Notes under the pieces: generated by a model
Database searches by the model: none
Seen by the model: only the letters and a program-made list of their open reading frames with translations
What the model was told of the DNA's origin: nothing
Shown: in pieces, positions 16,825 through 31,086 of the stretch
How the letters are laid out: the number at the start of each line of letters is the position of its first letter
Position numbering within the stretch: position 1 is the stretch's first letter
From: Pseudideonella sakaiensis
Lineage (GTDB): Bacteria; Pseudomonadota; Gammaproteobacteria; Burkholderiales; Burkholderiaceae_C
Assembly (NCBI RefSeq): GCF_001293525.1
Contig: NZ_BBYR01000043.1
Coordinates: forward strand, 1-64,000
Direction of reading: 5' to 3'
DNA: 64,000 nt
Translations under genes and position numbers: made by a program

Positions 16825-17778
16825 TCAAAGGTCCAGCACCAGGGTCGCCGACTTCGAGCCCGAGCAGCACACCATGATGCAGTCGTTGGCCGCCTTCTCG
16901 TCGTCGGCGAGGTAGTCGTCGCGGTGGTCCGGCGTTCCGTCCACCACGCGTGTGCGGCAGGTGCCGCAGACGCCGGACGAGCAGGCGTACTGCACCGACA
17001 CGTTGCGGTCCAGCAGCGCGTCGAGGATGGTCTGGCCGGCCAGCACCGGCACGCGTTGGCCGCTGCGCTGCAGCACCACCTCGAAACCGCCTGCGGTGGC
17101 CGCCTCGTTGCCGGCCGCGAAGCGCTCGACGTGCACGCGCTGCGCGGGCAGGGCCGCGCCGGCGGCGAGGAAGGCATCGATCATGCGGGCCGGTCCGCAG
17201 CAGTACAGGTGCGACTCCGGCGGCGCCTGCCCGACGATGCCGGCGATGTCCAGGCGCTCGGCGCCGCTGCCCGACAGGCTCAGCTGCAGCGGATTCGCCG
17301 CGCTGGCCAGCGTCTTCAGTTCGTCGACGAAGGCGGCCGATTCCGCCGAGCGGGCGGCATAGTGCAGCGACCAGCGGCGACCCTGGCGGTCGAGCTGCTT
17401 CAGCATCGACAGGATCGGCGTGATGCCGATGCCGCCGGCGATCAGCACCGCCGGGGCGTCCGAGTCGGCGAGCGCGAAGTCGTTGACCGGCGGCGAGGCC
17501 TGCAGGCGCTGGCCGACGCGCAGCGCCGTGTGCATCCACTCCGAACCGCCGCGGCCCTGCTCGTCGCGTTGCACCGCGACGACGTAGCGGTGGGTCTCGG
17601 CCGGGTCGTTGAGCAGCGAGTAACTGCGGATGCGCTGCTCCGGCAGGTGCAGGTCGACGTGGGCGCCGGCGGTGAACGCGGGCAGTGCGCGGCCGGCAGC
17701 GGGCACGAACTCGTAGGAGCAGATGCCCTCGGCCTCCCAACGGATCTGGCGCAGGCGAAGGTTCAGCAGTCCGCTCAA
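16825..17778 (-). CDS. Oxygenase reductase: FMN/NAD domains plus C-terminal 2Fe-2S ferredoxin
   Basis: The 317-residue protein has the class IA reductase order: flavin site RSYSLLND (about 51-58), NAD site LIAGGIGITPILSML, and a plant-type 2Fe-2S cluster ACSSGVCGTC with a later CIMVCC. It passes electrons from NADH to the Rieske oxygenase encoded just upstream, as in phthalate and vanillate systems. The start is TTG 17778, supported by GGGAG six bases upstream and by the lack of any other early start. Confidence 0.92.
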   Translation of the reverse strand: MSGLLNLRLRQIRWEAEGICSYEFVPAAGRALPAFTAGAHVDLHLPEQRIRSYSLLNDPAETHRYVVAVQRDEQGRGGSEWMHTALRVGQRLQASPPVNDFALADSDAPAVLIAGGIGITPILSMLKQLDRQGRRWSLHYAARSAESAAFVDELKTLASAANPLQLSLSGSGAERLDIAGIVGQAPPESHLYCCGPARMIDAFLAAGAALPAQRVHVERFAAGNEAATAGGFEVVLQRSGQRVPVLAGQTILDALLDRNVSVQYACSSGVCGTCRTRVVDGTPDHRDDYLADDEKAANDCIMVCCSGSKSATLVLDL

Positions 17779-17832
17779 GCGTCGCTCCCGGTCGTGCCGG
17801 TCGCGGCGCCCGAAGTCACGGGGCAGGGCGCG

Positions 17833-19152
17833 TCACAGCGCATAGCCGAAGTCCTCGCCCAGGCGGGCCGTCATCGGTACCCGGCCCTGTTCCTGCCACG
17901 AGGCGCCGGCGGGCAGCGTGAGCGACACCGCGCGCACCATCCACAGGTCGGGGTCGGCGTAGCGCGGCGGTCGGGTGCCATCGGCGGCCATCCGGCGCAG
18001 GCAGTCCAGCAGCATGCGGCGCGTCATCGCGACGCCGGTGTCGCTGACGCCCAGGTGCTCCTTGCTGCGGTCGTAGATCGGCGCCACGCCCGACTGGCAG
18101 GCGGCGTCCTGCACCCACAGGCCGGGCAGGCCGGAGAACCAGGTCTTGGTCTGGGCGTCGTAGTTGAAGTGGAACCCGGTCTCTGCGTTGAACTTCGTCC
18201 AGTACTTCGCGTACGGCACGGTCGGCGGGCGCGGGGCGAAGGCGGCCTCGCTGGCATGCCCGGTCTCGCGGCCGTTGTGGCCCTCGCGCATCAGCTTGCG
18301 GGTCTTTTCGTAGAACGGCGTGGCCGGCGTGTACGAGAACATCAGGCACAGGGTGTTGTGGTCGTCGAGCGGCACCCAGGCGTGGCCGCTCAGTTCCGGG
18401 AACTTGGACTGCGGCGGCACCAGCGTGTAGAAGGGCAGCAGGAACTGGTTGACACGCCAGTAGTGCGTCTCGGCGTCCAGGATGCGGCGCGACGCGATGC
18501 TCATGCCGAAGTCCTGGCGCTGACACTCGAACACCGGCCGCAGGTCGCGCTTGGACACCCAGTCGCTGATGGCGCCCTGGGCGTCGATGCGACCATGCAG
18601 GATGGCGGCATGCGCCGAGTCGATCTCGCCTTCCACCGCCTGCAGCCAGTTGCATTCCTGCACGCGGAAGCTGACGTGGACGTTTTCTGCCGGCACCATG
18701 TTCCACTCCATGTTCGGCAGCGGCGGCGGATCGTCCTGCTCCGGGCCCATGTAGGCCCAGGCGATGCCGTTGCGCTCCTCGCACCGGTAGTGTTTCAGGC
18801 GCGCCTTCTCTTTCAGGCGGCTGTCGGCCGGCTCGGCCGGCGTCTCCAGCACCTGGCCGTCGGTGCCGAACTTCCAGCCGTGGTACACGCAGCGCAGCCC
18901 GCAGTCCTCGTTGCGGGCGAACACCAGCGGCGCGCCGCGGTGCGGGCAGGCATGGTCGACCAGGCCGATCGTGCCTTGGCTGTCCTTGAACGCCAGCAGC
19001 TCCTCGCCCAGCAGCCTGACGCGCTGGGGCTGTCCGTCGGGTGGCAGGTCGCTGGCGGGCAGGAACGGGATCCAGTACAGCCGCATCAGCTCGCCCATGG
19101 GCGTGCCGGGGCCGACGCGGGTCAGGCGTTGGTTATCTTCGATGGTGAGCAT
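17833..19152 (-). CDS. Rieske non-heme iron oxygenase, large subunit (phthalate dioxygenase type)
   Basis: The 439-residue enzyme carries the Rieske ligands C69-x-H71 and C88-xx-H91 (CPH...CVYH) and a mononuclear iron region NWLQAVEGEIDSAHAAILH with two histidines. The opening MLTIEDNQRLTRVGPGTPMG is typical of the phthalate 4,5-dioxygenase branch, so ATG 19152 is used. ATG 19215 has a better AGGA and lies right beside the operator, so a longer form is possible. It would hydroxylate or demethylate the ring or carboxylate substrate, and it heads the seven-gene operon. Confidence 0.92.
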   Translation of the reverse strand: MLTIEDNQRLTRVGPGTPMGELMRLYWIPFLPASDLPPDGQPQRVRLLGEELLAFKDSQGTIGLVDHACPHRGAPLVFARNEDCGLRCVYHGWKFGTDGQVLETPAEPADSRLKEKARLKHYRCEERNGIAWAYMGPEQDDPPPLPNMEWNMVPAENVHVSFRVQECNWLQAVEGEIDSAHAAILHGRIDAQGAISDWVSKRDLRPVFECQRQDFGMSIASRRILDAETHYWRVNQFLLPFYTLVPPQSKFPELSGHAWVPLDDHNTLCLMFSYTPATPFYEKTRKLMREGHNGRETGHASEAAFAPRPPTVPYAKYWTKFNAETGFHFNYDAQTKTWFSGLPGLWVQDAACQSGVAPIYDRSKEHLGVSDTGVAMTRRMLLDCLRRMAADGTRPPRYADPDLWMVRAVSLTLPAGASWQEQGRVPMTARLGEDFGYAL

Positions 19153-19217
19153 GCGCGAACGAGCCTGTGGTTGCTGGGCCCCATCGGGGCGGCGCATGGC
19201 GACTGGTAGGGCCATGC

Positions 19218-19228
19218 TGGTCCTACCA
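19218..19228. promoter_or_regulatory. Candidate GntR-type operator, copy 7 (Rieske operon promoter)
   Basis: TGGTCCTACCA keeps both half-sites of TGGT-N3-ACCA. On the minus strand it follows a TATTATGATT stretch and covers the position expected for transcription or translation start of the Rieske gene. Confidence 0.55.
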
Positions 19229-19241
19229 ATCATAATAGCAA

Positions 19242-19252
19242 TGGTTCTACCT
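19242..19252. promoter_or_regulatory. Second operator-like site at the Rieske promoter
   Basis: TGGTTCTACCT matches the pattern with one mismatch and lies 24 bases from copy 7, centre to centre. A weaker third copy (TGGTAGGGCCA) starts at 19204. Clustered sites could allow cooperative repression of the main operon. Confidence 0.4.
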
Positions 19253-19705
19253 GACCGAGGGCCTGGGTAAGGGCAAACCCTTGAGTCGCTGGCCGAACGC
19301 CGGTGCCAGACGCCAGCGACGCCTGGACGCTCGTCCGCCATCACGCAACACACTTCGACATAGACCTCTCCGGCCAGACCGGGCCAGCCCGCGCCGTCGG
19401 CTGTCCGCGACAGGGCTTGGTCAGCCTGCAGGTCCGATGTCTCGCAGAACGCGCCTGGACACCAGGAGATCGATGCCAGGCGTTCAAGCGGCCGAAGGAC
19501 AGCTGCGATCGGGCGGTGATGCGTTCGCCCGAACAAGCAGCCGCCCTCCGCCCAGGCGTACCGCCAGGTCCTCGAGCCACGCGCGCTCTGGGGGCTCGAT
19601 GCGGGACCGGCCGATGTGGCGCCCGTTGCGCTCGGGCCGTCGGCTCACGGGCCCGCCACTTGCCCTGTCTCGTTCTCCACCACCGCCTCAGCAAGGAGAC
19701 AGGCC
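19253..19705. other. Gap without a recognised gene at the island boundary
   Basis: About 450 bases lie between the Rieske promoter and the next ribosome site. Open frames exist on both strands, but none has a ribosome site, recognisable protein or consistent codon bias. It marks the change from the catabolic island to ordinary chromosomal genes and may hold decayed sequence. Confidence 0.4.
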
Positions 19706-22411: not shown

Positions 22412-25342
22412 ATGAAGGACGCCCGCCGCCACCGCCTGACGATCCTGTGCTCCGACCTGCAGGGCTCCAGCGCGCTGGCCCGCGGGCTCGAGATCGAGCA
22501 GTTCGCCGAGCTGCTGGCGGCCGTGCGGGGGCGCTGGCAGGCGGCCGCGCAGCGCCACGGCGGCACGGTGCTGCGCATCCAGGGCGACGGCGCGCTGATC
22601 GTGTTCGGCCTGCCGCACGCGGCCGAGGACGACGGCCGCCGGGCGGCCGCCTGTGCGCTGGAGATCCATGCCGCGGTCGACGGCCTGGGGGCCGAGGCCG
22701 GCGTGCCGCTGCGGCTGCGCTCCGGGCTGCACGCCGGCATCGTGCTGCTGACCGAGGGCGACCTCGAGCGCGGCCGGATGGACCTGAGCGGCGATGCGGT
22801 GCACGTGGCCGCGCACCTGCAGCGCGACGCCCCGCCGGGCGGCATCCTCGCCAGCCTCGACGCGCTCGGGCCCGACGCGCACTGCTTCGAACTGGGGCCG
22901 GACCCGCGGCCGGGACCCGCCGGCCCGGCCGAGGTGGTGCAGGTGCTGGGCCACGTGCGCGTGGCGCGCCGCTTCGATGCGCTGGTGCGGCGCGGCCTGA
23001 CGCCCTTCGTCGGCCGCGAGCGGCTGTTCGGCCAGCTGGCGGAGCTGTTCGCCGGCCCCGCGGCGCCGCGCTGCATCGTCGTGCAGGGCGGCCCGGGGCT
23101 GGGCAAGACCCGGCTGGTGGAGGAGTTCCTGGCGCGGCGCCTGCCGTCGCACTGGCAGCTGCTGCTCGGCCATTGCGAGACGCAGGGCGGCGCCCGCCTG
23201 CTGCAGCCCTTCGTGCAGATGCTCGGCGGGCGCGAGGCCTCGGACGACGTCGCGCACGTGCACGACGAGCTGCGGCTGCGCCTGCAGGCCGGCCCGACGC
23301 TGCTCGTGATCGACGACTGGCAGTGGGCCGACGATGCCAGCCGGCGCCTGCTGGTGCGCCTGCTGCAGGCGCCCGACGGCCCGCGCGTGCTGCTGGCGGC
23401 CCGCCCGCGCGAGGACGGCCTGGCCTGGATGGCCGACAGCCCGCACCTGCCGGTGCCGCCGCTCGACCCGGCCGAGTCCGCGCAGGCGGTGCGCCTGCGG
23501 CTGCCGGATGCCGACCCCTTCCTCGCCCGCCGCATCCACGACCACGCCGGCGGCGTGCCGCTGTTCGTCGAGGAGCTGTGCCTGTCGGCGGCCTCGCAGT
23601 CGCTGTGGCAGACGCTGGACGGCCGGCCCGCGTCCACCGGCTGGCTCGGCGGGCTGGTGGCCTCGCGCCTGGAGCGGCTGCCGCCGGCCGCCGCGTCGTT
23701 GGTGCGCGCCGCGGCGGTGATCGGCACGGCCTGCCCGGTGACGCTGCTGGCCGAGGTCTGCGGCGGCCCGCCGGACGCGGCCGTGCTGCAGCTGCTGGCC
23801 GATGCCGACTTCCTCCACCCCGACGCCGCCGGCCGCCTGCTCAGCTTCAAGCACGGGGTGACGCGCGAGGCGGTGGTCGAGGCCACCGGGCTCTATGAGC
23901 GCACCGACCTGCACCGGCGCATCGAGGCCCGGCTGCTGGCCGGCTCGCCCGGCGCCGCCGAGCTGCCCGACCCGGACGAGGCCCTGGCCCACCACGCGCG
24001 CGGCGCCGGCCACTGGGAGCGGGCCACGGAGGCGGCCGAGCGGGCGGGGGACCGTGCGGTCGCGGCCTTCGCGCTCGGCTCGGCGCGGCGCCTGTACCGC
24101 AGCGCGCTGGAGGCGATCGACCGCCGGCCGGGCCGCACGGCCGCGGACGATGCGCGCTGGGTCGGCCTGGCGGCCAAGCTCGCCTACACCTGCGTCTTCG
24201 ACCCGCTGTCCCTGCCCGATGGCCTGGCCGTGTTCGAGCGCGCGCGGCTGCTGGCCGAGCGCAGCGGCGAGCCGCTGCGCGTCGCGCGCGCCCGCTACTG
24301 GCTGGGCTACCTGAAGTACGCCGTCGGCCGCTTCCGCGAAGGGGCCGACGAGGCCGAGGCGGCGCTGAACCTGGCCCGCGCCGCCGGTGACGCCCGCCTG
24401 GCCGCGCAGATCGAGGCCACGCTCGGCCAGATCCTGGCCGGCTGCTGCCGCTATGCGCAGGCGCTGCACCTGATGGACGGCGCGCTGGATGCGAAGCAGC
24501 GCGGCAGCCGGCCCGGCGGCGGCCTGGCCACCGGCTCGGCCTACACCCTCGGCTGCAAGGGCTACGTGCACGCGGACCAGGGCGACTTCGCGGCCGGGCA
24601 GCTGGCCTTCGCCGAGGCCTTGTCGCTGCTGGGCGACTCCACGCACCCGGTGTCGAACTCGATGCGCAACTGGCTGGCGATCGCGCAGATCTGGCAGGGC
24701 CGCTGGGACGAGGCGGCGCGCGTCGCGGCCAGCAGCGTGCAGATCGCCACCGGCACCGGCGCGCTGCTGCTGCTGGCGGCCAGCCGCGCCGTCTGGGGTT
24801 ATGCGCGCTGGTGCGCGGGCGATCCGCAGGGCCTGCCGCAGTTCGTCGAGGCCGCCGGCTGGATGCGGGCCCGGCACTGCGATTTCTACGCGTCGCTGTT
24901 CCATGCGTGGGAGGCCGAGGCCGCGGTGGTCGCGGGACGCCCGGACGAGCTGCGCCGCGCGGCCCGCGTGGTGCTGCGCCGCTGCCTCGCCGGCGAGCGG
25001 CTCGGCGAGGCCGCGGCCTGCCGCGCGCTGGCGCTGCAGGCGGCGCGCTCGGGCGAGCCGGGGCGGGCGCAGCGCTGGCTGCGCCGCGCCGACCACAGCG
25101 CGGCCTCGCGGCAGTCGCCGCGCGAGGCGGCGCTGAATGCGCTGGTGCGGGCCGGCATCGCCGAAGGGCGGGTGCCGCTGGTGTCCGGCGCTGCCGCCGG
25201 CGACGCGTCGCCGCGAGTGGCCTCGCCGGCCCGCCTCGCGGCGTGGCAGGCCCTGCAGTCGATGGCGGTGCGCGACCTGCCGCCGCTCTACGCCGGACTG
25301 GTGCCGGAACGCCCCGGCAGCCATCCCAGCGCCGCGATCTGA
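22412..25342 (+). CDS. Class III cyclase-like domain fused to STAND ATPase and TPR repeats
   Basis: This 976-residue regulator has three parts. Residues 8-180 form a class III nucleotidyl cyclase domain that keeps both metal aspartates (Asp15 in CSDLQGSS, Asp59 in QGDGALIVFG) but has GDAVHVAAHL where active enzymes have VNxAxR, so the transition-state Asn and Arg are His131 and His135. Residues 200-480 form an AAA/STAND ATPase with Walker A GGPGLGKTR (226-234) and Walker B LLVIDDWQWAD. The rest is TPR-like helices. The cyclase may be inactive or only bind nucleotide. Its end overlaps the convergent peroxidase-P450 gene by 55 bases. Confidence 0.88.
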   Translation: MKDARRHRLTILCSDLQGSSALARGLEIEQFAELLAAVRGRWQAAAQRHGGTVLRIQGDGALIVFGLPHAAEDDGRRAAACALEIHAAVDGLGAEAGVPLRLRSGLHAGIVLLTEGDLERGRMDLSGDAVHVAAHLQRDAPPGGILASLDALGPDAHCFELGPDPRPGPAGPAEVVQVLGHVRVARRFDALVRRGLTPFVGRERLFGQLAELFAGPAAPRCIVVQGGPGLGKTRLVEEFLARRLPSHWQLLLGHCETQGGARLLQPFVQMLGGREASDDVAHVHDELRLRLQAGPTLLVIDDWQWADDASRRLLVRLLQAPDGPRVLLAARPREDGLAWMADSPHLPVPPLDPAESAQAVRLRLPDADPFLARRIHDHAGGVPLFVEELCLSAASQSLWQTLDGRPASTGWLGGLVASRLERLPPAAASLVRAAAVIGTACPVTLLAEVCGGPPDAAVLQLLADADFLHPDAAGRLLSFKHGVTREAVVEATGLYERTDLHRRIEARLLAGSPGAAELPDPDEALAHHARGAGHWERATEAAERAGDRAVAAFALGSARRLYRSALEAIDRRPGRTAADDARWVGLAAKLAYTCVFDPLSLPDGLAVFERARLLAERSGEPLRVARARYWLGYLKYAVGRFREGADEAEAALNLARAAGDARLAAQIEATLGQILAGCCRYAQALHLMDGALDAKQRGSRPGGGLATGSAYTLGCKGYVHADQGDFAAGQLAFAEALSLLGDSTHPVSNSMRNWLAIAQIWQGRWDEAARVAASSVQIATGTGALLLLAASRAVWGYARWCAGDPQGLPQFVEAAGWMRARHCDFYASLFHAWEAEAAVVAGRPDELRRAARVVLRRCLAGERLGEAAACRALALQAARSGEPGRAQRWLRRADHSAASRQSPREAALNALVRAGIAEGRVPLVSGAAAGDASPRVASPARLAAWQALQSMAVRDLPPLYAGLVPERPGSHPSAAI

Positions 25343-28300
25343 GCCGCGACGGCCCGCGCCAGGCCCTCGTAGCCGGCCGCGGTGGGATGAAGCTCGTCGT
25401 CCCAGTAGCGCCGGTAGCGCGTGTCGGCGTCGCCGGGGTCGCCGAAGTCGGGCAGCGCGGCGAGCTGCCCGCGCAGGTCGAGGTGGTGCACCGGCCGGCC
25501 GCGCGCCTGCTGGTCGGCCGCCAGCGTGGCCACCATGCCGTTCAGCCGGTCGATCAGGTGGCGCATCACCGGCCGCGTCAGCGCCAGCCCGTGCTGCCGG
25601 CGCCACGCGAACACGGGCTGCAGCCAGGTCGGCCAGCCGGGCGCGGGGCCGTGGCCGGCCGGGATCGGGTGGTCGTAGGCGTGGACGAGGATCGGCACGC
25701 CCGGTGCGGCCTGCGCGAGGGTGTCCAGCAGGCGCTCGTAGTCGGCCCGTCGCTGCGCGAGGAACTGGTCGAGCAGGCCCTCGTCGACCGCGTCTTCGGG
25801 CCGGGTCGCGCCGTCTCGCAGCAGCGCGGCCAGCCAGGTGTTCTGCGGCTGCCCGTCGGGGCTGCCGGCGAGGTCGTTGCCGCCGCCGTCGAGCAGGATC
25901 AGCTGCGGGCGCGGGAAGCTGCCGGGCAGCCCGTCGTAGGCGTCGCCGAGGGCCTGCACCAGGCGCTCGCGCATCTCCTCGCCGGCCAGCTCCATCAGCG
26001 TGTAGCCCGGTTCGGCATGGCCGACGCCGTGGTTCACCACGCGGCAGCCGTGCGCGGCCAGCGCGGTGACCAGGTCCGGGAAGTCCGGGCCGTGCAGGTC
26101 GCTCAGCCACGAGTCGCCGATGGCCCAGCAGACGAGGGGCGCCGGCCCGGCCCCTGGGGCCGCCGGCGCCGGGCCCGTGGCCGCCGGCGCGCCAGGCGGC
26201 GTGCCCGGTGCGACCGCGCCGGTGCCGGGGCGGCCGGCGGGGTCGGTGGCGGGGAAGGGCGCCCGTCCGCGCACCACGAAGCTGACCGCGGACGGCCCGG
26301 GCCGCAGGGGCAGGGGGCTGGTGACCAGCGCCATCACGAAGCCCTTCATCATCTGCTGCGCGAGCGTGCGGCCCGGGCAGGCGTGGGTCGGCGCGCCGGC
26401 GGCCGCGCGGTCGCCGCCGAAGGCCGGGCCCAGCTCGGCCGAGCTGCCGGCGGCAAGCGCCTGCTGGGTCGCGGAGGCGAGGCCGATCACCACCACGTCG
26501 CCGGGCACGAGGTCGACGCCGTCGGCGCCGCCCAGCCGGCCATGGTCGCGCGCGGTGCGCCAGATCAGCTCCGGCACGGTGCGCAGCTGCATCGCCTGCC
26601 GGAAGGCCTCGTCGACGTGCCGCTCCAGGTCGGCCGGCGACAGGCGCTCGCGCGCGTCGCGAAGCGCCCAGAGCGTGCCGTCGGTCCACCACTGCGCCAG
26701 CACGCGGCGCAGCACCGCGTCCACCGTCGGCACGAAGCCCATGATCAGGCCGAGCAGCGTGCGCGACGCATAGCCCGGGTCCCGTTCGGCCGCGCTGCTG
26801 CCGAGCACCGCGGTGACCGACGGCTGGCTGAGCGTGCTGCCGAACTGGGCCAGGAAGCCGTCCATCGCCTGGCGCAGCGCCTGCCCATGCGCCGCGCCGA
26901 TGCGGCCGACCTCGGCGCCCGGGTGCGGCTGGAAGAACCAGCGCGAGGGTGCGATGAAATGGCCCGGGTAGCGCGCCGGCTCGCCGGGCTGCCAGCGCCA
27001 GCTGTAGCCGCCGCGCGCGAAGTGGCCGCCCTCCTCGGAGAGCCCGAACCACTGCTCGCAGAAATGGGCCAGCAGCGCATCGACGAGCTCGCGCAGGTCG
27101 ACCACGCGTTCCCAGTCGACCGGATCGCACGGGGTGGCGCACAGGTGGCGCCGGATCGCCTCGTCCTGCAGGGCCGACGCGCGCGCCTCGTCGATGCGGT
27201 GCTGCAGCGCGTGCTGGGTAGCGTCCAGCGCCATCACGTAGGTGTCGCAGGGCGACAGGCTGGCGAGTGCCGCGAGCGCCGGCGGCGCCTCCGCCTCGTA
27301 GCGCCCGTCGCCGGCATCCTGGCCGAGGAAGATCGGGCCGTAGGCGGCCGCCATGCGCGGCAGGTAGCCGCCGGCGCTGGCCAGCGGCGTGCGCAAGGCC
27401 TCGTCGACCGCCTGCGGGCTGGCCGCCAGCACGCCGTAGGGCGTGCGCAGGCAGCCGCCGGGCCGCGCACGCACGGCCGCCCAGACGGACGCGGCACCGA
27501 ACTCGGCCGACGCATCGGCGTCCTCCAGCGCGGCCTTCCAGGCTACGCGGGCGGTGGCGCAGCCCTCGCGCGCCTCCAGCCCCTGCAGGCGCGCGATCAC
27601 CGCCTCGCCGGCCTGCGCATCCCAGGGCAGGCGCCGCGCCGGCGCAGCCGCCGCGCCGGCGGCCGCCGCACGCGCGGCGAGCAGCCGCAGCGCACGCGTC
27701 GAGGGCGCGAAGGCATACAGGCCCCATTCGAGGCGCACGATCGGGCGCGGCTCCTCGTGCAGCCGGTCGCTGCCGTCGAGCGGCAGCCGGACCACGCGGC
27801 CGTCGTGCTCGAAGCGGTAGTGGCGCTGGCGCCCGCCCTCCGGCACGCCGAAGAAGGGGTCGGACGGCGCCGAGGGCGTGCCCGGCGGCGAGCCCCCGGC
27901 GAGCCAGCGCTGCACCACCTCGAACTGCTCGGCGAGGCTGGCGCCGTAGGCCATGAAGACGAGCCCGCGCTCCTGCGCCAGGCTGGCCTCGCGGGCGGCC
28001 GGATCGGACGCCTGCCGGTCGTGCAGCGGCCCGTAGCTCAGGCTGCGCCGGAACAGCTGCGGCGGCCGGCTGCCCGCGCGCAGCGTCTCGCTGACCGGCG
28101 ACAGCTGGGTGTCGCGCGGGTTGGCGCGGCGGATGTGCGCATGGAAGGGGCAGGCCCGGCCCTCGGGGTCGCCGCGGTAGTGGAAGTCGTTCAGGCGCGC
28201 GGGGTTGGCCAGCGGCACCAGCGGCTGGTTCGCCCGCGGGTGGTCGGCCGGCCAGCGGCCCATCATCTTGGCCAGCGTGGTGTCGCGGTCGATGACGCTG

Positions 28301-30111
28301 GCCGCCAGCGCCTGCTCGAGCACCGCGAGGTCCTGCCGCAGCTTGCGCACGGCGAGGAAGCTGCCGTTGTGCATCAGGCCAGCCGCGGTGTCGTCGGCGG
28401 GCCACGTGCCCTCGGGGACCGGCGGCTCGTCGGCGGCGTTGCCGTAGCCGACCAGCACCTCGCCGACGTGCACGTGGTTCGGGTAGGCCGGGTTCGCCTC
28501 GGCGGCGGTGAACACCGGCTCCGCCATGCCGTCGCCGAAGCCGAAGTGCTCGCGGGTGGCGCCGGCGGCGCCCGGGCCTGCCGGGGCGGTCGCCGGTCCT
28601 GGCGTGGCCGCGGGCGCGCGCAGCCGATGCATCCACTGCAACGACAGGGGCACCACGTCGGGGTCGGTGCCCACCAGCTGCTGCAGCCGGGCCATCAGCG
28701 CGGCGCGCGCCGCGGCCTCGGCCGGCGTCGTGTCGGCGAGCCGCAGCTGCAGCACCGCGTGCACGCTGGACAGCGCGATGCGCTCGGCGGGATCGTGCTC
28801 GGCCAGGTCCGGCGCGGCGACGCCGAGGGCCCAGTTGCGTCCGGGCAGGCGCCAGCGCGACGGGTGGTTGACGCGCAGGTCCCCGAGCAGGCCGGCGCGC
28901 GCGGCCATGCCTTGCACGAAGTCCTCGGGCCACTGCCGCAGCTCGTCCTCGCCCAGGCCGGCGCGGCGCAGGCCGTCCGGCGTCACGGCCAGGGTCTGCA
29001 CGATGCGGTCTTCCGGCAGCCGGCCCTCGGTGGTCGGCACGAAGCGGCCGAGGAAGCCCGCCAGCGCCTGCGCGCTGCCGAAGGCGAGCAGCAGCAGCAC
29101 GCCGTGGTTGCCGTCCGGCAGGGGCGCCAGGATGCCGGCCTGCACGGTGTCCGGCGCGGTGATCGCCGGGAGGGCCGGCGGGCGACGCCAGCGCCGCGTC
29201 GACGGATGGCGGGCCAGGCCGTCGCGGAACCAGTCGATCGCGTCGGGGAACTGCTCGCGCGCCCGGGCCACCGCCTGCGGCGAGGTCTGGGCCAGCCGCG
29301 CGAACTCCGGCAGCAGCTCGATCGCGGCGCGCACGAGGTAGTCGCCGTCGCCGTCGCCGGGCGGGTACAGATCGCCCAGCCGGTGCAGGCCGACCAGCGC
29401 GCGCAGCCCCTGGCGGAACGCGGGGCCCTGCACGTCGATCGCCGGCAGCGGCTGGCCGTGGCCGAGGTCGCCCGGGTCGGTGCCCGTGGTCACGAGCTCG
29501 AGGCCGACGCGCTCGGCCGGCAGCACCGGCTGGCGCATCGCGCGGCGCTCGGCCTCGTCCGCCGTGCCGCGCAGCAGCGCGCGCTGCAGCCCGACGTGGT
29601 AGCGGATGTCCTCGACGCCGATGCCGGGCGTGGCGTACAGGAAGGGCGTCTCCACCTGGCGGCTGCGCAGCCAGCGCCCCCAGGCCTCGAAGCCGATCAG
29701 CGCGCCGGGCTGGTAGTCGATCGTGTTGCAGTAGATCAGGTCGAGCAGGCGGGCGACCTTCTGCCAGATGGTGCGGACATACGACTCCCAGGCGCCGTCG
29801 AAGGTGGCAGCCAGCAGCACCGCGCCGTCGCGGCCGGCCGGCCCGCTGCCGTCGGCCTCGGGCTCGAGCACGGCGATGCGCACCGCATGGATGCGGCCGA
29901 CGCGCTCCACCGCGTCCGACATCACCCGCGCCAGGTCCTGCTCGTGGCCGAGGCGGCGACCCTGGTGCAGCGCGCGCAGCAGCCGCCGCACCCGGGTCGC
30001 GTAGGTGACCGCGTCGAGCGCGGGCACGAAGCCGGGCCGGATCGGCGCCAGCACGGTCAGGTCGGAGGTGCCGCCGAGGCTGGCGGTCTTGGTTCGGAAC
30101 TCGCGGCGCAT
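25288..30111 (-). CDS. Fusion of Dyp-type peroxidase, cytochrome P450 and SGNH hydrolase
   Basis: One uninterrupted 1607-residue frame. Residues 17-300 are an accessory domain opening LTVLAPIRPGFVPALDAVTY. Residues 320-760 are a Dyp peroxidase with FGFGDG (Asp527) and the heme histidine His659 in CPFHAHIRRANPR. Residues 850-1285 are P450-like with ExxR (Glu1168, Arg1171) and the heme cysteine Cys1245 in THACPGRTLA, but the I-helix reads IMGFVPTVDAV without the oxygen-activating AGxDT. After a Pro/Ala/Gly linker, residues 1325-1600 are an SGNH hydrolase: Ser1334 in GDSW, Asn1412 in GGGND, and Asp1572/His1575 in DELHP. GGAG lies 7 bases before ATG 30111. There is no signal peptide. It may peroxidise a lipid, rearrange the peroxide and hydrolyse an ester. 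Confidence 0.88.
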   Translation of the reverse strand: MRREFRTKTASLGGTSDLTVLAPIRPGFVPALDAVTYATRVRRLLRALHQGRRLGHEQDLARVMSDAVERVGRIHAVRIAVLEPEADGSGPAGRDGAVLLAATFDGAWESYVRTIWQKVARLLDLIYCNTIDYQPGALIGFEAWGRWLRSRQVETPFLYATPGIGVEDIRYHVGLQRALLRGTADEAERRAMRQPVLPAERVGLELVTTGTDPGDLGHGQPLPAIDVQGPAFRQGLRALVGLHRLGDLYPPGDGDGDYLVRAAIELLPEFARLAQTSPQAVARAREQFPDAIDWFRDGLARHPSTRRWRRPPALPAITAPDTVQAGILAPLPDGNHGVLLLLAFGSAQALAGFLGRFVPTTEGRLPEDRIVQTLAVTPDGLRRAGLGEDELRQWPEDFVQGMAARAGLLGDLRVNHPSRWRLPGRNWALGVAAPDLAEHDPAERIALSSVHAVLQLRLADTTPAEAAARAALMARLQQLVGTDPDVVPLSLQWMHRLRAPAATPGPATAPAGPGAAGATREHFGFGDGMAEPVFTAAEANPAYPNHVHVGEVLVGYGNAADEPPVPEGTWPADDTAAGLMHNGSFLAVRKLRQDLAVLEQALAASVIDRDTTLAKMMGRWPADHPRANQPLVPLANPARLNDFHYRGDPEGRACPFHAHIRRANPRDTQLSPVSETLRAGSRPPQLFRRSLSYGPLHDRQASDPAAREASLAQERGLVFMAYGASLAEQFEVVQRWLAGGSPPGTPSAPSDPFFGVPEGGRQRHYRFEHDGRVVRLPLDGSDRLHEEPRPIVRLEWGLYAFAPSTRALRLLAARAAAAGAAAAPARRLPWDAQAGEAVIARLQGLEAREGCATARVAWKAALEDADASAEFGAASVWAAVRARPGGCLRTPYGVLAASPQAVDEALRTPLASAGGYLPRMAAAYGPIFLGQDAGDGRYEAEAPPALAALASLSPCDTYVMALDATQHALQHRIDEARASALQDEAIRRHLCATPCDPVDWERVVDLRELVDALLAHFCEQWFGLSEEGGHFARGGYSWRWQPGEPARYPGHFIAPSRWFFQPHPGAEVGRIGAAHGQALRQAMDGFLAQFGSTLSQPSVTAVLGSSAAERDPGYASRTLLGLIMGFVPTVDAVLRRVLAQWWTDGTLWALRDARERLSPADLERHVDEAFRQAMQLRTVPELIWRTARDHGRLGGADGVDLVPGDVVVIGLASATQQALAAGSSAELGPAFGGDRAAAGAPTHACPGRTLAQQMMKGFVMALVTSPLPLRPGPSAVSFVVRGRAPFPATDPAGRPGTGAVAPGTPPGAPAATGPAPAAPGAGPAPLVCWAIGDSWLSDLHGPDFPDLVTALAAHGCRVVNHGVGHAEPGYTLMELAGEEMRERLVQALGDAYDGLPGSFPRPQLILLDGGGNDLAGSPDGQPQNTWLAALLRDGATRPEDAVDEGLLDQFLAQRRADYERLLDTLAQAAPGVPILVHAYDHPIPAGHGPAPGWPTWLQPVFAWRRQHGLALTRPVMRHLIDRLNGMVATLAADQQARGRPVHHLDLRGQLAALPDFGDPGDADTRYRRYWDDELHPTAAGYEGLARAVAAQIAALGWLPGRSGTSPA

Positions 30112-30222
30112 GCGCACACTCCGGCGGGGGCAGGGCGATGCGCGGATGCTCGGCGATCGCGTCGGCCGGCGCATCCCTTGGGTTGACGAACCAGCCGGCC
30201 GGCGCCGGCGCCCACGCCCGGT

Positions 30223-30837
30223 TCACCAGCGCGGCGGCAGCTCCATCGGCAGCCACCAGGCCCCGTCGCCGTGCACGATGTAGCCGCCGCGCACCAGGTC
30301 GGCGAGCAGCCGGCTGACCATCTCGCGCGAGCAGCCCAGGCGCTGCGACAGCGCGAGGTGGGTGGGCGGCGCGGCGATGCGCCGCTCGCCGCGGCCCGGT
30401 TCCGGCCGGGCGAGTTCGTCCAGCACCGCGCGCAGGCGGCCATAGACATCGTTCAGCGCCAGCTGCTTGGTGCTGAGCGTGGCGGCGCGCGCGCGCCGGA
30501 TGACCTTGGTCAGCAGCTCGAACGCGAACGCGGGGTGCTCGGCCACGAAGGCCTCCAGCACCTCGCGCGAGACCGCGGAGAAGCGCGAGGCCTCGAGCGT
30601 GACCGCGCTGGCCGAGCGCGGCCCGCCGTCCAGGCTCATCTCGCCGAGGTAGTCGCCCGCGCCGTAGATGCCGTAGGTGATCTCGCGTTCGCGCTCGCCG
30701 CGCGAGAAGACGCGCACGCGGCCGGCGAGGATGACGTAAAGGGCCCCGCCCGGATCGCCTTCCTCCATCAGCACGGTGCCCTTGCGGTAGCGCCGCTCGA
30801 CGCCGCGCGCGGCCAGCGCGCGCAGCAGTGGGCTCAT
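30223..30837 (-). CDS. Crp/Fnr-family transcription regulator
   Basis: The 204-residue protein has a cyclic-nucleotide-binding fold (YRKGTVLMEEGDPGGALYVILAGRVRVFS, then GDYLGEMSLDGGPRSASAVT) and a C-terminal winged helix LALSQRLGCSREMVSRLLADLVRGGYI. GEMSLDGGPRSAS is close to the cAMP pocket of true Crp-like proteins. The start is set at ATG 30837, with GAGG five bases upstream. A start at 30969 would add 44 Pro/Ala-rich residues. It lies 111 bases upstream of the peroxidase-P450 gene on the same strand and may activate it. Confidence 0.88.
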   Translation of the reverse strand: MSPLLRALAARGVERRYRKGTVLMEEGDPGGALYVILAGRVRVFSRGEREREITYGIYGAGDYLGEMSLDGGPRSASAVTLEASRFSAVSREVLEAFVAEHPAFAFELLTKVIRRARAATLSTKQLALNDVYGRLRAVLDELARPEPGRGERRIAAPPTHLALSQRLGCSREMVSRLLADLVRGGYIVHGDGAWWLPMELPPRW

Positions 30838-30989
30838 CTCGGCCTCGGCGGCGTGGGCGCCCGACCCGCCGGGTGGCAGGGTCGGGGAGCGCGGGGCGGG
30901 CGGGGCGGGCGCTGAGGGCGGCGTCGCTGGTGAGGGGGCGGCGGGCATGGGCATCGGGCGTCGCGGCATCCTATCCGCTGACGCTGACG

Positions 30990-31010
30990 CTGCTGCTGCT
31001 GCTGCTGCTG
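30990..31010. repeat. Trinucleotide repeat (CTG)7 between luxR-type and crp-type genes
   Basis: Seven CTG units run without interruption, preceded by two CTGACG units (30978-30989). The tract lies about 150 bases upstream of the preferred crp-type start. It would be translated only if transcripts started far upstream. Such repeats can change length by slippage. Confidence 0.75.
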
Positions 31011-31086
31011 CGATCGCGTGCCCGGTCGCTCGGGCGCTGGTGCCCGACGAGGCCCGGGCCGGGCGCTGCCCGGCCGGAAGGCGCCG

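Follow-up and report, generated by a model that had tools for sequence, protein, structure and literature searches.

The closest described systems include bifunctional heme enzymes of oxylipin metabolism. In the fungal dioxygenase-cytochrome P450 fusions (DOX-CYP: linoleate diol synthases and dioxygenase-allene oxide synthases, DOX-AOS), the P450 is self-sufficient, has an HxC heme loop and follows a heme dioxygenase/peroxidase domain (PMC13049297, PMC4420034). In coral catalase-lipoxygenase and in cyanobacterial catalase-lipoxygenase and catalase-dioxygenase fusions, a catalase-like part forms one half of a bifunctional enzyme of oxylipin synthesis (PMC5617202, PMC11719350), and the P450s of the CYP74 clan use hydroperoxide without O2 or a reductase (PMC10813956). 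Here we analyze a gene of Pseudideonella sakaiensis that encodes a DyP-type peroxidase, a divergent P450-fold domain and an SGNH hydrolase in one protein. It lies in a stretch of 64,000 nucleotides (nt; contig NZ_BBYR01000043.1, positions 1-64,000; GC 74%), hereafter the window, from whose start all coordinates are counted.

As in fungal DOX-CYP, a heme peroxidase precedes a P450 with an HxC heme loop, but the fungal peroxidase belongs to the cyclooxygenase superfamily whereas this one is a DyP. The analogy drawn in a first-pass annotation of this DNA, to peroxidase-P450 oxylipin fusions with a different peroxidase family, is supported. No P450 of the fungal DOX-CYP type was among the matches seen, and we know of no hydrolase or cyclase links for the fungal enzymes. 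P450s of the CYP74 clan likewise have an altered I-helix and a longer heme domain, the latter a possible parallel to the longer loop here; however, the ERR triad matters in CYP74 while ExxR is lost here, the activity of our protein is a predicted one, and no direct sequence link of its P450 domain to CYP74 was found. In the coral and cyanobacterial fusions the hydroperoxide-forming partner is a lipoxygenase (LOX) or a heme dioxygenase, whereas here it would be the DyP; the likeness lies in the catalase-like partners of the wider DyP family described below. Stand-alone DyPs (PDB 8re3, 4g2c) have the same fold and catalytic Asp, His and Arg, but are free enzymes without P450 or hydrolase. The first-pass annotation knew of no bacterial system of this kind, and our searches of the open-access literature likewise gave no description of a DyP-P450 fusion.

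Three enzyme domains in one reading frame

The fusion gene occupies 25288..30174 on the reverse strand, as do all its parts given below: one open frame of 1,628 amino acids (aa), from an ATG at 30174 to a stop codon at 25288-25290, with the domains in the order N-terminal module (N-module), DyP peroxidase, P450-fold, SGNH hydrolase. The N-termini of homologues align from Met22, and by this alignment Met22 (30111), the start used in the first-pass annotation, is the likelier start. The seven residues named there are all found once 21 is added to their numbers (Asp548, His680, Cys1266, Ser1355, Asn1433, Asp1593 and His1596). GC by codon position in the frame is 0.79/0.55/0.96, as in a coding frame; long overlapping frames on the opposite strand have no coding-type profile and were rejected as genes. 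The ratio of nonsynonymous to synonymous substitution rates (dN/dS) is low, 0.07-0.34, in 10 domain comparisons, which include one pair for the N-module and two for the SGNH domain.

The order N-DyP-P450-SGNH recurs in independent assemblies of Bradyrhizobium and in a metagenome-assembled genome (MAG) of Aquabacterium, and therefore the fusion is no sequencing error. That the frame was joined by such an error, the refutation foreseen in the first-pass annotation, found no supporting evidence, is refuted by these homologues and keeps next to no probability. With the frame, the domain evidence and the independent homologues in agreement, the fusion of three enzyme domains in one bacterial protein is confirmed as real. 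A phage origin was rejected, with no match among 50,697 phage records at E 1e-5. The protein is probably cytosolic, no signal sequence being evident by eye.

The N-module (aa 30-335; 29170..30087) matches no Pfam family. Part of it is homologous to the stretch in front of the DyP in Skermanella, Pararhizobium and others, where hhalign aligns 103 columns (96.9%, E 1.9e-10). The DyP domain (aa 336-860; 27595..29169) matches NCBIfam TIGR01413 at E 4.3e-22 with 78.8 bits, below the curated cut-off of 100.5, which the relative L045 exceeds (106.6 bits); its best PDB match is a Deinococcus DyP (E 5.4e-29). Pfam Dyp_perox_C (PF20628) is found in all 16 family members at E <= 1, the window protein scoring 19.8 bits against a cut-off of 20. 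A structure model of N-module plus DyP retrieves 37 PDB chains in Foldseek at E <= 1e-3 (DyP domain, E 2.7e-19), all titled DyP-type, EfeB or PF3257 peroxidase, although its mean predicted local distance difference test (pLDDT) is only 57.6 and its N-module part is of low confidence. Judged by alignment, the domain keeps the catalytic Asp, His and Arg: the distal Asp548 in GFGDG (28531..28533), the proximal heme ligand His680 (28135..28137) and both residues of Arg709-Arg710 in the distal Arg region RRxxSYG (28045..28050) are invariant in 16/16.

Because Pfam gave no P450 match (PF00067, in the window protein or any of the 16 aligned members at E <= 1), the identity of the next domain (aa 872-1318; 26221..27561) was tested in three ways, by profile, hhalign and structure. 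The AlphaFold (AF2) model has a predicted template modelling score (pTM) of 0.84 and a pLDDT of 83, and Foldseek relates it to 652 PDB chains at E <= 1e-3, with P450s at probability 1.00 and a TM-score of about 0.5; the best 50 of the 652 can be identified as P450s from their title or a known name, with one title, that of FrazP2, not explicit. A profile of 20 relatives of the domain has 59 PDB matches up to E 10 (best E 0.0053), all 59 of which we take to be P450s. Compared by hhalign with five sister-architecture P450s, the same profile gives 98.3% (E 1.1e-14), and the heme Cys positions of the two are paired. The profile of those P450s matches PDB P450s at E 1.9e-39, and the three of them that were scanned all match Pfam P450, one below cut-off. 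Judged by fold model and profile, then, the domain is a P450. Of the checks proposed in the first-pass annotation, a domain search of the frame thus recovers DyP and SGNH by profile but no Pfam P450, which was found by hhalign, PDB profile and Foldseek; structure prediction recovers the P450 fold and, by Foldseek, the DyP fold, the latter from the low-confidence model.

The P450 domain departs from canonical P450s at three sites. Its heme loop, FGGDRAAAGAPTHACPG (26371..26421, with Cys1266 at 26377-26379), reads FGGxR-x7-HxCPG and has 14 residues from Phe to Cys where the canonical signature has 7, an excess of 7. All 43 rows covering the position, equal to 33 distinct segments, have the heme Cys, as do 16/16 in the alignment with the window. 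The CYP74 haem domain has 9 extra residues (PMC10813956), to which the longer loop may be compared, as a parallel and not as proof that the inserts are homologous. The I-helix, aligned to other P450s, reads GFVPT (aa 1146-1150; 26725..26739), with the Thr kept and the acid replaced by Pro; G, P and T of G-[FM]-x-P-T are invariant in 16/16 and none of the 16 fits the monooxygenase motif [AG]GxDT, as the first-pass annotation had reported for this protein. Its claim of an ExxR motif fails: the motif meant there is ELIWR (ExxxR), while the aligned K-helix reads QAMQ (aa 1193-1196; 26587..26598). The motif is lost throughout, Glu and Arg both being absent in 16/16 (at the Glu position P 11, Q 2, A 2, K 1; at the Arg position Q 13, V 2, I 1). 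P450s without ExxR are exceptional yet can be functional (PMC3990721).

An ordinary O2-dependent P450 monooxygenase was considered and rejected: the AGxDT acid is missing, and of ten neighbouring genes scanned in the window just one, at 16825-17778, is a flavin/iron-sulfur reductase, and it adjoins a Rieske oxygenase. The window region 16825-19536 holds this LigXa-like Rieske oxygenase and its reductase, a separate ring-oxygenase-type system.

The C-terminal SGNH/GDSL hydrolase domain (aa 1345-1628; 25291..26142) matches Pfam GDSL_2 (PF13472) at E 1.3e-11, above cut-off, with Ser1355, Asn1433, Asp1593 and His1596 as putative active-site residues. Ser, Gly, Asn and His are kept in 8/8 aligned domains and the catalytic Asp of DxxH in 2/8, namely Asp1593 in the window and its counterpart in the Aquabacterium MAG; the other six domains (L002, L003, L004, L008, L015, L091) have Asn. 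The domain has no PDB relatives under E 0.8.

Relatives, rearrangements and exchanged partners

Genome contigs scanned with peptide patterns gave 42 loci. The trio whose co-occurrence the first-pass annotation had proposed to survey is found, as full N-DyP-P450-SGNH, in five Bradyrhizobium loci (L002, L003, L004, L008, L015) and in the Aquabacterium MAG (L012). In L006 the contig end cuts the fusion just after the GDSW block, and L013 is likewise cut inside the fusion. N-DyP-P450 without SGNH occurs in nine Bradyrhizobium loci (L005, L007, L009-L011, L014, L016-L018) and three of Roseateles (L019-L021), and the remaining 22 of the 42 match mainly the DyP part. Public annotations call individual relatives 'Dyp-type peroxidase domain-containing protein' or 'cytochrome P450'.

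Within the genus of Bradyrhizobium cajani (G100, the genome of L003), 28 of 242 genomes carry the P450 domain. SGNH was detected after it in 10 (one a contig-end trace, one split over contigs); 10 more are close relatives without SGNH, 6 belong to a distant clade without SGNH, and 2 have only a stand-alone P450. The stand-alone P450s are 434-450 aa long, and one SGNH genome carries such a copy additionally. At higher ranks matches occur in 1/100 genomes of the window's order, which is the window's own, and in 3/289 of the class of G100, one being G100 itself and one weak (E 2.8e-5). On a tree of 25 rows, the best account of SGNH takes two changes, a single gain and a single loss; long branches make it less certain where the window, L012 and L021 belong.

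Immediately before the fusion, all four loci fetched from the six-member distant Bradyrhizobium clade carry a gene for a patatin-like phospholipase (for the two scanned with Pfam, E 1.3e-10 and 3.1e-11; >60% identity for the other two; GxSxG and DGG by eye). The patatin gene takes the place of SGNH in this sister clade, and no homologue of its protein was found at the other loci compared, including the SGNH-less Bradyrhizobium subclade. Two clades thus combine the enzyme with an acyl hydrolase, as the SGNH part of the fusion in one and as a neighbouring patatin gene in the other.

The sister architecture is represented by DyP-P450 proteins of Pararhizobium, Novosphingobium and Skermanella, which have a homologous N-module and DyP, a P450 and often cyclase and Crp neighbours. 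They differ from the window protein in that the P450 is N-terminal or a separate gene and has ExxR and a Pfam match, in a membrane segment (by eye), and in that no hydrolase was recognised. The order P450-N-DyP is fused in Pararhizobium, Novosphingobium, L032, L041, L136 and L137, while N-module, DyP and P450 are adjoining separate genes in Skermanella and in four fetched regions (L128, L134, L138, L139). The two fusion orders and the unfused operon argue that the three parts work together.

Searching with the N-module gave matches in 27/398 genomes of the phylum. Of the 13 regions fetched from these matches, 6 have a P450 and 6 a catalase-like protein as the heme partner of the DyP, while one, L126, has neither; a fourteenth fetched region, L135, came from a P450 search and is outside this count. 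The catalase assignment comes from L133, whose 16 PDB matches are all catalases (best E 8.6e-6), and the five other proteins tie to L133 by BLAST at E 1e-24 or better; searched by itself, the L130 protein had no PDB match better than E 0.97. The proteins of L127, L129 and L130 have Asn (RxGNTK) where the other three have His (RDAHAK), and so are unlikely to be ordinary catalases. At L129:7688-10390 the DyP and its catalase-like partner share a single open reading frame, which makes a second type of fusion between DyP and a heme enzyme. A Rhizobium sophoriradicis plasmid (L047) has, two genes ahead of a DyP, a gene for an animal heme peroxidase (PF03098, E 7.6e-9), and no N-module was detected at that locus; the peroxidase, a hypothetical gene and the DyP stand there near C25 peptidase, ferritin-like and radical SAM genes.

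A conserved cyclase neighbour

Tail to tail with the fusion, and overlapping it by 55 bp, lies a gene (22412..25342, forward strand) whose product is by Pfam a class III nucleotidyl cyclase-AAA_16-TPR protein. Such a gene stands beside the fusion in 24/24 relatives with full flank, i.e., all 23 loci of N-DyP-P450 order among 29 compared, plus L135; L002, L006, L013, the stand-alone P450 loci and the window itself are left out of this count. Two TRAP-transporter genes separate fusion and cyclase in L020, and the contig of L012 stops within the cyclase. The pair is tail to tail in most loci and co-directional, with the cyclase downstream, in the patatin clade, so the link survives a change of orientation. 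The other six of the 29 loci comprise four of P450-N-DyP order, with a different gene type directly upstream, and L047 and L048, which have none; the upstream genes of the four are cyclase-TPR by Pfam in L041 and L045 and relatives by BLAST in L032 and L046.

Over the 29 loci the cyclase is by far the commonest neighbour cluster (23 loci; the next is in 8). The window genome has only 3 cyclase-domain matches and the Roseateles (L019) genome 2, one in each being the neighbour of the fusion, and therefore chance adjacency is unlikely there; four Bradyrhizobium genomes have 27-42 such matches each. The cyclase linkage, like the wider family, goes beyond the first-pass annotation.

Directly upstream of the fusion, on the same strand and 48 bp from the ATG at 30174, is a gene for a Crp/Fnr regulator with a cyclic nucleoside monophosphate (cNMP)-binding domain by Pfam (30223..30969; its match to NCBIfam CRP, E 1.2e-21, stays under the cut-off). 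The window shares a Crp-type regulator no more than a few kb away with L032, L041, L044, L045, L134, L135 and L137. Between 22000 and 31500 there are three CRP-like palindromes with 3 mismatches and no FNR-like ones. A short CAG/CTG-type trinucleotide repeat occupies 30970-31086, upstream of the Crp gene. At other loci (L003, L005, L010, L011, L016, L018, L020) a TRAP transporter pair (DctQM, DctP) is nearby, Pfam-checked in L003 and L020.

Proposed function and alternatives

From the hydrolases, the interchangeable partner folds and the missing monooxygenase features we infer peroxide or hydroperoxide chemistry on an acyl lipid. Our leading, still tentative, reading is that the protein, with its two predicted heme sites and one hydrolase site, belongs to a family that combines DyP with a second heme enzyme, that it handles hydroperoxides and probably oxidises lipids in an oxylipin-like way, and that it is linked to cyclic-nucleotide signalling. 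The hydrolase would release or trim the acyl substrate and the DyP would make an oxidised intermediate using H2O2 or a hydroperoxide. The P450 domain, itself driven by peroxide or hydroperoxide, would act as a self-sufficient isomerase, lyase or peroxygenase and not as an O2-dependent monooxygenase; no redox-partner gene adjoins the fusion. The cyclase, and in some loci the Crp regulator, may then link the oxidised lipid or the enzyme's output to cyclic-nucleotide signalling. Both partner folds, P450 and catalase, are represented in known allene oxide synthases and hydroperoxide lyases (PMC10813956, PMC5617202).

The first-pass annotation had proposed a three-step lipid enzyme, which is partly supported. 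The role of lipids and hydroperoxides gains indirect support from the patatin gene in the sister clade and from the catalase-like partners, but the order of peroxidation, rearrangement and ester hydrolysis is conjectural: SGNH was detected in only 10/28 carriers, its catalytic Asp is Asn in 6/8 domains, and DyPs normally use up peroxide and do not form lipid hydroperoxides. In a wider version, the DyP would replace LOX or cyclooxygenase (COX), an interchangeable P450, catalase or perhaps COX-fold partner would convert the hydroperoxide, SGNH or patatin would supply or release the acyl chain, and the cyclase would provide the wiring. Such a bacterial counterpart of the phospholipase-cyclooxygenase-P450 cascade, a form of lipid-mediator signalling, is possible but doubtful.

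Several points weigh against a lipid-oxidising enzyme. Architecture, conservation, linkage and low dN/dS are direct results, while substrate and chemistry are inferred. We know of no fatty-acid peroxidation by DyPs, and no lipoxygenase was found among the neighbour genes scanned with Pfam, a scan that covered part of the neighbours. Loss of ExxR could mean weak or no heme binding, and the N-module, with its low-confidence model, has no assigned role. SGNH was lost in a Bradyrhizobium subclade with no patatin homologue found adjoining, so a hydrolase is not strictly required. At L002 no cyclase is seen in the 1.36 kb of contig past the gene, and the catalase-like partners equally fit simple peroxide detoxification.

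The last point leads to a peroxide-handling or sensing module, in which DyP and a second peroxide-active heme protein would scavenge or read H2O2 or organic peroxides, the cyclase-AAA protein would report the stress and the hydrolase would be accessory. Such a role suits the pairing of DyP with catalase-like proteins and the cyclase and Crp neighbours, but we consider it unlikely given a dedicated P450 partner, patatin or SGNH hydrolases, the sparse distribution (1/100 genomes in the window's order, 28/242 in the G100 genus) and the Asn for His in 3/6 catalase-like partners. Tailoring of a non-lipid metabolite (an aromatic, terpenoid or hopanoid ester), with the hydrolase cleaving the ester and the hemes oxidising the core, seems to us improbable to the same degree. 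In its favour, macrolide and other secondary-metabolite P450s are among the top PDB matches of the sister P450 profile, and some loci have an AMP-binding enzyme and TRAP transporters nearby; however, the neighbour clusters of the 29 loci contain no conserved biosynthetic genes.

Two further alternatives carry less weight. That the P450 part is a heme-free scaffold, akin to the P450-derived glycosyltransferase activators, would fit the loss of ExxR in 16/16, and TIGR04515 is the best NCBIfam match of the stand-alone Skermanella P450, though far below cut-off (53 of 343 bits). With the heme Cys kept in 33/33 distinct segments, functional P450s without ExxR on record (PMC3990721), and EAMR plus the heme Cys retained in 5/5 sister-architecture relatives, we hold a scaffold to be quite improbable. 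A cyclic-nucleotide defence module of Pycsar or STAND type, with an oxidative effector, is less plausible again and was rejected. PADLOC matches the cyclase to PycC (E 2.1e-10) and the Crp cNMP domain to PycTIR and effector models (E 3.8e-12), but these matches are restricted to the general cyclase and cNMP-binding domains, the fusion matches no PADLOC model at E <= 0.01, and no PycC with its own effector is found.

Fusions of a heme peroxidase with a P450 are a hallmark of fungal oxylipin synthesis. If the lipid-oxidising reading is true, the Pseudideonella protein and its relatives would be a second such design, based on a peroxidase unrelated to the fungal one, with an acyl hydrolase attached and a cyclase as neighbour, in bacteria that include plant-associated rhizobia, and would point to a convergent lipid-signalling route. 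It would also add a P450 family without ExxR and would give DyPs, which to our knowledge often have no known physiological substrate, a concrete and testable one.

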